Source of the DNA: Crocinitomicaceae bacterium
Lineage (GTDB): Bacteria > Bacteroidota > Bacteroidia > Flavobacteriales_D > Crocinitomicaceae
Assembly (NCBI GenBank): GCA_030727405.1
Contig: JANRBR010000022.1
Location: forward strand, 1-64,000
Direction: 5' to 3'
DNA: 64,000 nt
In this document: one piece after another, positions 41,171-45,303 of the stretch
Position numbering within the stretch: the first letter of the stretch is position 1
Layout of the letters: each line of letters opens with the position of its first letter
The notes under the pieces: generated by a model
The model's database searches: none
The model's input: only the letters and a program-made list of their open reading frames with translations
Told to the model about the DNA's origin: nothing
Made by a program: the position numbers and the translations under genes

Positions 41171-41211
41171 CAACATCATTGTACGACACAAGTCGTGCCA
41201 AAAAAACGGAT

Positions 41212-42822
41212 ATGGAACTACACGGTAAATTTGGTCAACATGCAGATTTGGCAGCATCCATTGGACTCACAAACTTGGGGGATCAATTTTGGAATTTAAG
41301 TCCTGCTGAATTAGTTGAAGATTGCATCATTCTTGGAGAAGGAATGTTAACAGACACAGGTGCTTTAGCCATCGAAACGGGTGAATTTACGGGTAGGTCA
41401 CCAAAAGATCGATTCATTGTACGCGATGAGAAAACCGAAAATGCTGTCTGGTGGGGCGACATCAACATCGGATTCACTCCGGCTCAATTTGATGCACTTT
41501 ATGACCGTATGACTTCGTTCATGGAAGAACAAGACGTTTACGTAAGAGATGTGTATGCTTGTGCGGAGGAAAAGTACCGAATGAATATTCGTGTTATAAC
41601 CGAATTGCCTTGGTCGAGCTTATTTGCACACAACATGTTTTTGCGTCTAACGGACAATGAAATTGAAACCTTTGTTCCAGAGTGGCACATCGTGTGTGTT
41701 CCTAGTTTTAAAGCGGATCCAAGCATTGATGGGACACGTCAATCCAATTTCGCCATCTTAAACTTCACCAAAAAAATGATTTTAATTGGTGGAACGGGTT
41801 ATACCGGAGAAATTAAAAAAGGAATTTTTTCAGCACTTAATTTCATCTTACCGCATGAGAAAAATGTGTTGTCCATGCATTGTTCAGCAAACATTGGAGA
41901 ATCAGGAGATACGGCCATTTTCTTTGGTTTGTCGGGTACAGGAAAAACAACCTTGTCTTCAGATCCAAATCGACGATTGATTGGAGATGATGAACATGGT
42001 TGGAGTGAAAATGAAGTCTTTAATTTTGAAGGCGGATGCTATGCTAAAACCATTGATTTGAGCCGTGAAAAAGAGCCACAAATCTATGATGCAATTCGTT
42101 TTGGTGCGTTATTAGAAAACATTGGTTTCATCAATGGCACTTCTACTCCGGATTATACGGATGGCTTCATCACGGAAAACACGCGGGTTTCTTATCCGAT
42201 ACATCACATAGACAACATTGCGGTTCCATCCATTGGAGGAGCCCCGAAAAATATATTCTTCTTGACAGCAGATGCTTTTGGTGTTTTACCTCCGATTTCA
42301 AAATTAACGAAGGAGCAAGCCATGTATCACTTTATGTCTGGTTATACAGCTAAGGTAGCGGGAACAGAAGTTGGAATTACCGAACCAACCACCACCTTCT
42401 CAGCGGGATTTGGCGCAGCGTTTTTGCCTTTGCATCCTGCTAAGTATGCGAAGTTATTAGGCGATAAATTATCTGGGACAAACATCAATGTTTGGCTGAT
42501 AAATACAGGATGGTCTGGTGGATCCTATGGTGTTGGAAGTCGCATGAAACTGTCTTATACACGTTCCATGATCACTGCAGCATTAACTGGGAAATTGGAT
42601 CAAGTGGCATTTGAAAACATGCCGATTTTTGACTTGGCCTTCCCAACAACGTGTGAGGGTGTTCCAGCAGAATTGTTGAATCCACGAAATACTTGGTCTG
42701 ATAAAAACGCTTATGACTCCACAGCGGCAAGTTTGGCCGAGAAATTCGTGAAAAACTTTGAGAAATTTGCAGCGGAGTCACATGAATCTATTTTAGCAGC
42801 GGCACCGAAAGTTACCGTTTAA
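41212..42822 (+). CDS. pckA: Phosphoenolpyruvate carboxykinase (ATP)
   Basis: 536 residues from ATG 41212 (MELHGKFGQHADLA); a TTG at 41179 could add 11 residues but would sit beside the promoter. Motifs: 'TGEFTGRSPKDRFIV', 'MHCSANIGESGDTAIFFGLS' (~230), kinase-1a P-loop 'GLSGTGKTTLSSDP' (~248) and 'IGDDEHGW' (~267). It converts oxaloacetate to PEP in gluconeogenesis. It ends at a strong terminator. Confidence 0.97.
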   Translation: MELHGKFGQHADLAASIGLTNLGDQFWNLSPAELVEDCIILGEGMLTDTGALAIETGEFTGRSPKDRFIVRDEKTENAVWWGDINIGFTPAQFDALYDRMTSFMEEQDVYVRDVYACAEEKYRMNIRVITELPWSSLFAHNMFLRLTDNEIETFVPEWHIVCVPSFKADPSIDGTRQSNFAILNFTKKMILIGGTGYTGEIKKGIFSALNFILPHEKNVLSMHCSANIGESGDTAIFFGLSGTGKTTLSSDPNRRLIGDDEHGWSENEVFNFEGGCYAKTIDLSREKEPQIYDAIRFGALLENIGFINGTSTPDYTDGFITENTRVSYPIHHIDNIAVPSIGGAPKNIFFLTADAFGVLPPISKLTKEQAMYHFMSGYTAKVAGTEVGITEPTTTFSAGFGAAFLPLHPAKYAKLLGDKLSGTNINVWLINTGWSGGSYGVGSRMKLSYTRSMITAALTGKLDQVAFENMPIFDLAFPTTCEGVPAELLNPRNTWSDKNAYDSTAASLAEKFVKNFEKFAAESHESILAAAPKVTV

Positions 42823-42854
42823 GCCCTTTCCATCAATCAGCAAGAGCTTGGACA

Positions 42855-42888
42855 AAGCCCCGGACAGTAATGTCAGGGGCTTTTTTTG
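42855..42888 (+). terminator. Terminator of pckA
   Basis: AAGCCCC (42855-42861) pairs with GGGGCTT (42876-42882), extended by GACA/TGTC, then a run of seven T. The hairpin is related in sequence to those at 43141 and 51076. Confidence 0.9.
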
Positions 42889-42891
42889 TTA

Positions 42892-42985
42892 TGTGCCGCA
42901 GGATTTGCAATCCTGGGGTACAACAATCGATACGGCAAAGCTTGTTGTGTAGAAAGAAAGTTCCGCGGGATTGCAAATCCCGCGG
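42892..42985. repeat. REP-like palindrome doublet in inverted orientation
   Basis: First palindrome: CAGGATT-TGC-AATCCTG (42899-42915), extendable to 42892-42922 with few mismatches. Second: CCGCGGGATT-GCA-AATCCCGCGG (42963-42985), ten perfect pairs. The cores GGATTTGCAATCC and GGATTGCAAATCC are reverse complements, so the two form an inverted pair with a 47-base spacer that itself has TACAACAA/TTGTTGTGTA arms. This resembles REPIN/BIME elements. No associated transposase is in the window. Confidence 0.65.
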
Positions 42986-43140
42986 TGCGGTTGACGGGAA
43001 ATGTGGTGGTGATTAGGTAGGGTTGTCTCAACTGTGCAACTTCAGTGGAAAAGTACAGTAACTAAGCCGAACTTTTATTTTTGATAAGGAATTACCGCAG
43101 CAGTAAAATTGCATCGGAACGGTTTAAAGTCGCTTTAAAC
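42986..43140. other. Intergenic stretch without recognisable gene
   Basis: Part of the 368-base gap between pckA and rpmH. I see no tRNA, small RNA or ORF. The only structure is a short inverted repeat GTTTAAAG-TCG-CTTTAAAC (43122-43140) directly upstream of the rpmH terminator hairpin. Confidence 0.5.
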
Positions 43141-43171
43141 AAAAAAAGCCCTGACGTTGCTGTCAGGGCTT
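43141..43171 (-). terminator. Terminator of rpmH
   Basis: AAGCCCTGAC (43146-43155) and GTCAGGGCTT (43162-43171) with loop GTTGCT. On the minus strand seven T follow. Nearly identical to the hairpin at 51076-51114. Confidence 0.9.
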
Positions 43172-43190
43172 GCATATCTTTGAAAAAGAA

Positions 43191-43349
43191 TTAACGTTTG
43201 TGGAAAGGCTCGTCAGAAACAGTTAATTTCTTTCTACCTTTTTTGCGTCGCGCAGCCAAAACTCTACGACCATTTTTAGTAGCCATACGGCTTCTGAATC
43301 CGTGCTTGTTTCTTCTTTTTCTTACCGATGGTTGAAACGTTCTTTTCAT
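43191..43349 (-). CDS. rpmH: Large ribosomal subunit protein bL34
   Basis: 52 residues, read directly from the minus strand: begins [20 protein letters not shown], followed by the conserved [20 protein letters not shown], and ends PFHKR after a short lineage-specific tail. This is a complete L34. It is monocistronic with its own promoter and terminator and is easily missed because it is so short. Confidence 0.97.
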
Positions 43350-43384
43350 GTCGTATCTTAATTATATAATCTATTTTGGGATTG

Positions 43385-43414
43385 CAAAGATATTGATTTT
43401 TTTAAAATTTCAAA
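43385..43414 (-). promoter_or_regulatory. Consensus promoter of rpmH
   Basis: On the minus strand TTTG (43414-43411), 18 bases, TATCTTTG (43392-43385). Leader about 32 bases. Confidence 0.8.
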
Positions 43415-43464
43415 TTCTTTCGACAAAATTATTTAAAAAATCTACTTTACCGCTCAAAGCGCCG

Positions 43465-43472
43465 TAAATTTG
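43465..43472 (+). promoter_or_regulatory. Candidate -7 box for the ABC exporter
   Basis: TAAATTTG matches TAnnTTTG, 16 bases from the ATG at 43489. The -33 element is not evident. Confidence 0.45.
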
Positions 43473-43488
43473 TAAAAAGAATCATTCG

Positions 43489-45303
43489 ATGCTGAGACCA
43501 AAAAAAGAGCAAAAAGAAAAGGTAAAAATCACTAAATCAAGCATTAAGAAAGCTAAGGGGATTTTTACTTACCTAAAACCATATGCTGGAATTTATTTTA
43601 TCGGTTGGATATTTTTGGTACTAAGCACTTCTGCAGGACTCGTTTTCCCTTATTTAATGGGAAAATTGTTGGGCGCAGGTGCTGCTACTTCCAATGTGTC
43701 AGAAGCCATTGGCTTGATTGATATGAGCAACATCAATAATGTGGCCATTGCCTTGTTTGTGCTCTTTGGATTTCAATCGCTTTTCTCGTTCATACGCGTA
43801 GTATTATTTAATAACGTGACCGAAAATGCATTGCGCGATCTTAGAAACGATGCTTTTTCCAAATTGGTCTATATGCCAATGGATTTTTTCAATCGAAATA
43901 AAGTGGGAGAGTTAACGAGTCGCTTGTCCTCGGATATCACACAAATCCAAGAAACGTTGCGCACCACGATCGCCGAATTCTTTCGTCAAATCATCATTGT
44001 AGTCGGTGGAATCCTGTTTCTTTTCTTCATATCTTGGAAATTAGCCTTGATCATGCTTGGGACCGTTCCTGTAATGGCCATCATTGCAGTCATCTTTGGT
44101 CGCTACATTCGTCGATTGAGCAAGGAAGCACAAGATTACGTTGCTGAATCAAATTCCATCGTGGAAGAGGCACTAACGGGAATTGCAAATGTCAAAGCAT
44201 TTACCAATGAGTTATTCATTTTTTCAAACTACAAGAAATCTACCCAGCAAACACGTGACTTGAATGTTCGCAGTGGAATTTGGAGAGGCTTATTTGTTTC
44301 GTTCATCATTTTTTGTTTGTTCGGAGCAATTGTGTTTATTGTTTGGCGTGGACTACTCATGACGCAGGGTGCTCATCCAGAATTGAACCGAGAAGGATTT
44401 TACCAATTTGTGTTGTTTACCATCATGATGGGGGCATCCGTTGGATCCCTTCCCGATTTGTATGCAAGTGTGCAAAAAGCGATTGGTTCGACGGAAAATC
44501 TGATGGACATCATTCACCAGGAAACAGAGATTCAAACAAATAAAGGAAGCCGAAAAGATAAACTAACGGGTGGAATTCAATTCAAACAGGTACGGTTTTC
44601 TTATCCACAGAGAAGCGACGTGGAAGTATTGAAAGAAGTATCCTTCGAAGTGAAAGAAAATCAGACCTTGGCACTTGTTGGACAAAGCGGCTCGGGTAAA
44701 TCAACCATATCCAATTTGTTGTTGCAGTTTTACACCTTGAACCATGGTGAAATATCCTTCGATGGCATTCCTGCCAATGAAATGGATTTAAATGCCCTTA
44801 GAGATCAAATGGCCATCGTTCCGCAGGAAGTCATCCTTTTTTCTGGTAGCATTCGTGAGAACATCTTATTTGGCAATCCAGCGGCAACGGAAGAGCAAAT
44901 CATGGAGGCAGCGAAGCAAGCGAATGCTTGGGAATTCATCGATGCTTTCCCGAAAAAACTTGAGACAGAAGTAGGGGACAGGGGTATTCAGCTTTCTGGT
45001 GGACAAAAACAGCGCATAGCGATTGCTCGTGCCATATTAAAGAATCCAACGATTTTAATTTTGGATGAAGCAACATCTGCATTGGATTCTGAATCCGAAC
45101 GCTTGGTTCAAGATGCTTTAGATAAGCTCATGAAGGGAAGAACGTCGATTGTGATTGCTCACCGACTATCAACCATTCGAAATGCCGATCAAATTTTGGT
45201 CCTTCAATCTGGAAAAGTGGAAGAATCCGGAACGCATCAATCGTTGATGGAATTAAAAGGATTGTACGCAGACTACGTGGGATTGCAGTCCATGAATCAA
45301 TAA
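43489..45303 (+). CDS. ABC exporter, MsbA/half-transporter type
   Basis: 604 residues. Transmembrane domain with six helices (~30-330), then an ATPase domain: Walker A 'GQSGSGKST' (~400), signature 'LSGGQKQRIAIARAI' (~503), Walker B 'ILILDEATSALD' (~523) and H-loop 'IAHRLST'. The fused homodimeric form and the length match lipid A/multidrug exporters. Its substrate is not evident from the sequence. It converges with ftsY, 22 bases apart, no terminator seen. Confidence 0.92.
   Translation: MLRPKKEQKEKVKITKSSIKKAKGIFTYLKPYAGIYFIGWIFLVLSTSAGLVFPYLMGKLLGAGAATSNVSEAIGLIDMSNINNVAIALFVLFGFQSLFSFIRVVLFNNVTENALRDLRNDAFSKLVYMPMDFFNRNKVGELTSRLSSDITQIQETLRTTIAEFFRQIIIVVGGILFLFFISWKLALIMLGTVPVMAIIAVIFGRYIRRLSKEAQDYVAESNSIVEEALTGIANVKAFTNELFIFSNYKKSTQQTRDLNVRSGIWRGLFVSFIIFCLFGAIVFIVWRGLLMTQGAHPELNREGFYQFVLFTIMMGASVGSLPDLYASVQKAIGSTENLMDIIHQETEIQTNKGSRKDKLTGGIQFKQVRFSYPQRSDVEVLKEVSFEVKENQTLALVGQSGSGKSTISNLLLQFYTLNHGEISFDGIPANEMDLNALRDQMAIVPQEVILFSGSIRENILFGNPAATEEQIMEAAKQANAWEFIDAFPKKLETEVGDRGIQLSGGQKQRIAIARAILKNPTILILDEATSALDSESERLVQDALDKLMKGRTSIVIAHRLSTIRNADQILVLQSGKVEESGTHQSLMELKGLYADYVGLQSMNQ

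Follow-up and report, generated by a model that had tools for sequence, protein, structure and literature searches.

What kind of element is the pair of palindromes that lies between the convergent genes pckA and rpmH in the window (the whole 64,000-nucleotide stretch of DNA analysed here, part of contig C22 of its genome), and how did it come to stand there? The two palindromes are inverted with respect to each other, and a preliminary description took them for a REP/REPIN-like doublet linked to RAYT (TnpA_REP) transposases. Comparison with the window's own genome (G000), with its congeners and with RAYT genes from more distant bacteria leads us to consider it very probable that positions 42896-42985 hold a non-autonomous REPIN, now orphaned, that belongs to a RAYT of Bacteroidota, most likely one of subclass 2.6, and that was gained by an ancestor and has been inherited since.

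The palindrome pair and its surroundings

The doublet is extragenic. We take its neighbours to be pckA and rpmH, the names given to them in the preliminary description. The features of the gap and its borders are listed below, types 1 and 2 being the two kinds of REP encountered in the genus.

41179..42822, plus strand: pckA (phosphoenolpyruvate carboxykinase), the upstream neighbour, convergent with rpmH
42855..42887, plus strand: terminator-like hairpin of pckA with a T run, read by eye
42896..42918, minus strand: left REP arm, type 1, reading CCCCAGGATTGCAAATCCTGCGG on the minus strand, with 9 of 10 pairs and a TGC loop (3 nt)
42919..42962, no strand: spacer of 44 bases, with 7-bp inner arms at 42920-42926 and 42942-42948
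42963..42985, plus strand: right REP arm, type 1, CCGCGGGATTGCAAATCCCGCGG, with a perfect 10-bp stem and a GCA loop (3 nt)
43096..43116, plus strand: decayed single type-2 REP (pattern CGCAGCAGTRCAACTGCAGCG, 3 mismatches), the cognate of another RAYT in congeners
43141..43171, minus strand: terminator-like hairpin of rpmH, read by eye
43191..43349, minus strand: rpmH (52 aa), the downstream neighbour

The core GGATTTGCAATCC is found at 42901-42913 on the plus strand and its reverse complement at 42968-42980. These exact 13-mers confirm that the pairing of a core with its reverse complement, as first described, is real; the separation of 47 bases given with it has to be corrected, as we measure 44 bases between the palindromes and 54 between the cores. 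Set against a 21-base type-1 pattern, the left arm (42897-42917) has one mismatch and the right arm (42964-42984) none, and the right palindrome has all ten of the perfect pairs credited to it. The self-complementary arms reported in the spacer are likewise present, as ACAACAA (42920-42926) and TTGTTGT (42942-42948). The right end of the spacer, AGAAAGAAAGTT, is common to the right-hand doublet of congener G015 and nearly so to others, and the 39-base segment 42950-42988, which holds the right arm, is identical to that doublet at 39 of 39 positions.

Folding, which the preliminary description had proposed as a check, sets the doublet far apart from shuffled sequence. With RNA energies, the region 42880-42995 forms one long hairpin of -52.7 kcal/mol, where shuffled versions average -30.26 (z -6.45) and none of 200 does as well; with DNA energies, 42893-42988 gives a z of -5.90 (again 0/200), the best fold being three separate hairpins and the centroid the long hairpin. 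A GT[AG]G foot is absent from both arms, with GTTC before the right arm and GTAC before the left (on the minus strand), and no T run follows either of them. Terminator-like structures similar to that on the pckA side are seen in congeners that lack the doublet. A search of 42400-43500 against Rfam returned only sub-threshold matches (eight at E up to 1, the best scoring 30.5 bits where the gathering score is 90). None of these lies over the doublet itself, which therefore corresponds to no known RNA family there.

On the other side of rpmH, the intergenic stretch between rpmH and an ABC transporter gene (43350-43488) is identical to that of G015 at 133 of 138 positions and to that of G002 at 128 of 139, and probably comprises divergent promoters.

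Copies and RAYT genes in the host genome and its relatives

The genome of G000 is a draft of 2.23 Mb in 42 contigs and is 99.75% complete. The exact 13-mer occurs in the whole of it at these two sites only (reversed control 0), and an extra type-1 arm match at three mismatches (C32:5360-5380) has no convincing context and may be due to chance. When two mismatches are allowed, the 13-mer is found six times in the window against 3.34 expected, a number reached by 11 of 100 shuffles; the loose core is thus not rare in the window, and what is unusual is the exact inverted pair rather than the core alone. The type-2 REP at 43096-43116 is the sole type-2 match in the genome (up to three mismatches), and none of 100 shuffles of the window gives one. 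No match to a RAYT was obtained in the draft contigs with either the Pfam Y1_Tnp profile or the G015 RAYT protein, and tblastn detected no RAYT remnant in the gap of the window (best E 4.0).

The preliminary description had expected a population of copies and a mover encoded elsewhere in the genome. Neither expectation is borne out in G000, which has two exact cores only and no RAYT match, and which thus lacks the many dispersed copies and the RAYT of an active REPIN population. A sole copy with no RAYT homologue had also been named as the finding that would speak against a RAYT-linked element, and within G000 this is in substance what is seen; the congeners, however, tie the doublet to RAYTs, and the comparison with them makes the result in G000 that of an orphaned element and not of a non-REP palindrome. 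With two arms, one weak match and no RAYT, the genome holds an orphaned remnant by descent rather than a living REPIN population.

The congener G015 provides the most direct comparison, its gap having been identified by tblastn of the neighbour genes. Between its pckA and rpmH stands a RAYT gene encoding 189 amino acids (L075:7656-8225, minus strand), placed between two copies of the doublet (C13 153449-153542 and 154360-154451; 83% and 86% identical to the window by BLAST), with one additional arm on the right-hand side. The protein scores 100.4 bits against NCBIfam NF047646 (REP-associated tyrosine transposase; cut-off 80) and 33.7 against Pfam Y1_Tnp (cut-off 23), and has a weak sequence match to E. 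coli TnpA_REP (PDB 4ER8; E 0.05). It possesses NHIH, WQ and YIHNNP motifs and an SS tail, with a HuH-Y distance of 85; the W of the WQ motif is followed by R in the RAYT of G084 and by K in those of G086 and G101.

Relatives of this RAYT number at least 558 in GTDB genomes, and the best 80, G015's own contig included, were scanned for the core. Members of the core family lie within 600 bp of the RAYT in 58 of these best 80 (a count for the narrowed core set; 59 before narrowing) and on both sides of it in 44, the window's exact 11-base core is found in 51, and the inverted order of the window's pair (a GATTTGCAATC-type core upstream and a GATTGCAAATC-type core downstream) is seen in 43. REPs flanking their cognate RAYT are therefore observed both in G015, at the very site of the window's pair, and in 58 of the 80 best relatives, in agreement with the REP/REPIN-like character and RAYT link first proposed. 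In the same 80, 168 cores fall in 92,189 bases near the RAYT against 63 in 340,477 bases further away, with one near and none far in a reversed-letter control. The cores are also skewed by strand, at 77:11 on the upstream side and 13:67 on the downstream side (p = 8e-22, uncorrected for relatedness); the 79 relatives other than G015 are nearly all titled Bacteroidota, many of them Flavobacterium or Chryseobacterium, and so are not independent of one another. No core is found nearby in 22 of the best 80.

Within the genus, the type-1 core lies near the RAYTs of G015, G084 and G100 and near a RAYT fragment of G094. The RAYTs of G086, G101 and G036, which are 52-55% identical to that of G015, have type-2 REPs on their flanks, namely GCAGTTGCACTGC with its complement or a close variant. 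In a comparison of genus RAYTs from which the rows of G100, G009 and G025 were left out as reads in the wrong strand or frame, the type-1 and type-2 proteins fall into distinct lines, about 55-59% identical. With up to three mismatches, type-1 REPs are found in 34 of 86 congeners (all 13 members of the clade defined below and 21 of 73 others) and type-2 REPs in 15 (again 13/13, with 2/73 others, G032 and G098). Type-1 copy numbers are modest, with none in 52 of the 86 and a maximum, in G101, of 21 forward and 8 reverse. The cores seen beside the RAYTs of the genus suggest that each RAYT line has a REP core of its own.

Several further observations concern these lines. G086, G101 and G036 have the type-2 line, which was not found in G000; in the G036 gene the frame contains a TGA codon, and the end of the gene extends into a type-2 REP (L186, about 1950-1980). 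More distant RAYTs of the genus, on L187, L188 and L189 (G009, G007, G025), adjoin other cores, GATTTTAAATC and GATTTGAAATC. Several type-1 REPs and a gene that, by its appearance, we presume to be truB-like lie near the G094 RAYT fragment (L191) and the G084 RAYT (L182).

History and conservation of the site

A pckA gene could be located in 78 of the 86 congeners, and the stretch downstream of it was compared in 77 (G071, a contig-end fragment, being excluded), 54 of them with rpmH; the first 400 bases were scanned where rpmH was missing and the first 1300 in long gaps. The clade to which we refer comprises the 13 genomes, G000 included, with a pckA at least 90% identical. At up to four mismatches, type-1 or type-2 REPs are present in the gap in 12 of these 13 and in none of the 64 others, the types not being counted apart as the type-1 pattern at this setting also catches some type-2 arms (G101, G084, G103). 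The thirteenth genome, G078, has a relic only, recognised by eye, and two genomes with type-1 copies, G032 and G064, are not placeable at the site because no pckA was found in them. The pair is intact in four clade gaps (G000, G002, G086, G015), and in the other nine it is partial, decayed or absent. With a limit of E 10, BLAST of a 111-base region against 60 genomes gave matches in 51, of which many span just 14-20 bases; as it is noisy below the top few rows, it was not used to score presence or absence. A ten-row alignment of the gap, with poor flanks (43% mean identity) and with G086 cut before the right arm, was relied on only for the two arms and the end of the spacer. In nine congeners (G021, G099, G106, G087, G006, G104, G105, G098 and G080) the pckA-rpmH gap has a near-constant length of about 2.25 kb, which suggests that it holds an inserted gene.

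A pckA tree of 22 rows supports the clade at 99/99. The other 12 members group without G000 (94/95, just under the mark of the tool), and G015 is nested within them as the sister of G078 (100/99). Apart from G015, the clade genomes (G078 and 11 others) show no RAYT match downstream of pckA, the stretches in G101, G084, G103, G036 and G079 having been read as far as their sequence extends, and among the congeners no pair of filled and empty sites was found that would prove movement.

The simplest history compatible with these data is an ancestral type-1 doublet and a later gain of the RAYT in the G015 line. The common ancestor of the 13 clade genomes would have acquired a REP doublet between pckA and rpmH when a RAYT (TnpA_REP, of the Y1 HuH family), working in trans on single-stranded hairpins, copied it there. 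The doublet would then have been passed on by descent; the window lineage, which presumably once had a RAYT, would have come to be without one, leaving a pair that is probably immobile today beside a decayed type-2 REP. A RAYT would later have been gained at the gap in the G015 line, type-2 REPs would have been added, and decay would have followed elsewhere.

The pair is better conserved than the rest of the gap. It is identical to the right doublet of G015 at 81 of 92 aligned columns, to the other G015 doublet at 79 of 92 and to the doublet of G002 at 71 of 80, and the two G015 doublets agree with each other at 83 of 94. Four-fold sites of pckA are identical to those of G000 at 72 of 211 in G015 and 76 of 212 in G002 (the rows of G086, read on the wrong strand, being left out of this comparison of pair and four-fold sites). 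The rest of the gap hardly aligns with that of G015 (33/61 identical, 88 gapped). The rpmH gene (155/159 identical to G015) is, like the intergenic stretch that separates it from the ABC transporter gene, more conserved than the pair. Judged by sequence, a pair identity of 88% at a near-saturated synonymous distance is above what would be expected of a dead remnant; constraint, exchange between species or late replacement through RAYT activity would each account for the likeness.

These data bear on three other readings, two of which overlap with the orphaned REPIN favoured here. An unlikely variant of it would make the pair the solo remnant of a RAYT cassette, recombination between the doublets having deleted the gene in the manner that gives rise to a solo LTR. 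RAYT and two doublets do stand in the same gap of G015, and the window's pair is about equally close to both of these doublets; they are, however, as close to each other as to G000, and the gap of the window shows no trace of a RAYT. Moreover, G015 lies deep in a clade of which the other 12 genomes, its sister G078 among them, show no RAYT match downstream of pckA as far as their sequence extends. Repeated losses would demand more events than a single gain in G015.

Rather improbable, too, is an addition to the orphaned-REPIN reading in which the element has been domesticated, the pair being kept for a host function at the junction of convergent genes, for example as an extra barrier between the pckA and rpmH transcripts or in protecting 3' ends of mRNA. 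The identity of the pair to G015 and G002, despite the divergence of the four-fold sites of pckA, would fit such a role, as would its retention at one locus in several deep lineages while the rest of the gap hardly aligns, and the right-arm form GCGGGATT...AATCCCGC is, among the matches listed, limited to this gap (G000, G086 and, twice, G015). Yet only four of the 13 clade gaps have an intact pair, both genes have terminator-like hairpins of their own, also where the element is absent, and the likeness of the pair could stem from local recombination between species, since even higher conservation is seen in the adjacent rpmH and in the region upstream of it. An ordinary bidirectional terminator or a chance palindrome with no RAYT link, which might be suggested by the convergent genes on both sides and by the single pair and missing RAYT match of G000, we consider highly improbable: the arms are followed by no T run and separate terminator-like hairpins are present, the RAYT association comes with a clean control, a RAYT occupies the same site in G015, and none of the 64 gaps outside the clade has the element.

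Significance and comparison with known REP systems

For G000 itself, the doublet is an ordinary relic. Its wider interest lies in documenting, at a single locus, how REPs and RAYTs turn over in bacteria other than the usual Proteobacteria: one gap bears traces of two REP types, for each of which sister species have a separate RAYT line, and one sister has a RAYT in place. It also supplies a concrete core, GGATTGCAAATCC, for the REPs that have been called 'atypical' in a RAYT subclass of Bacteroidota, and enzyme-substrate tests would thereby become straightforward. A literature search with the letters of the core returned no REP paper by title, supplementary tables (Quentin Table S1) lying outside its scope.

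The sections consulted of the work on REPINs discuss both long hairpin and clover folds (Bertels and Rainey 2011, PMC3116915). The doublet resembles the REPINs described there in having two inverted REPs and a short spacer, in its extragenic position, in its long hairpin versus three-hairpin (clover-like) fold and in that the same kind of REP flanks a RAYT in the relative G015, but it differs in sequence and in the missing GT[AG]G foot, and there is a single pair in its genome, with no RAYT match. According to a further study, a REP singlet is in most cases what is left of a REPIN in decay (PMC8049555). With the E. coli TnpA_REP/BIME REPtron (4ER8, PMC8266576) the system shares a HuH Y1 enzyme and inverted REPs nearby, whereas the E. 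coli REPs have GTAG, are abundant and go with a different subclass. E. coli and group 3 enzymes were tested for cleavage in that work, the searched text of which has no match to 'Bacteroid' (PMC8266576).

Subclass 2.6 of TnpA_REP, in the parts of its description consulted, is mostly found in Bacteroidetes, is flanked by atypical structures that lack GT[AG]G and have genomic copies, and includes the whole of Bertels' group 5 (40 sequences; Quentin et al. 2018, PMC6006769). The G015 RAYT conforms to the subclass 2.6 REPtrons, or RAYT group 5, in its NH[LIV]H, WQ and YIH[QN]NP motifs, its SS tail and the absence of GT[AG]G nearby, while the window differs from them in having the REP part only (PMC6006769). 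Subclass 2.4 shares near-identical HuH, W and Y motifs with 2.6, and the HuH-Y distance of 85 in G015 is midway between the medians of 82 for 2.6 and 88 for 2.4 (PMC6006769); with an SS tail and no GT[AG]G nearby, the G015 RAYT most likely belongs to 2.6. As far as can be read from sequence, the doublet is a RAYT-linked REP doublet of a known kind, and a new member of it.
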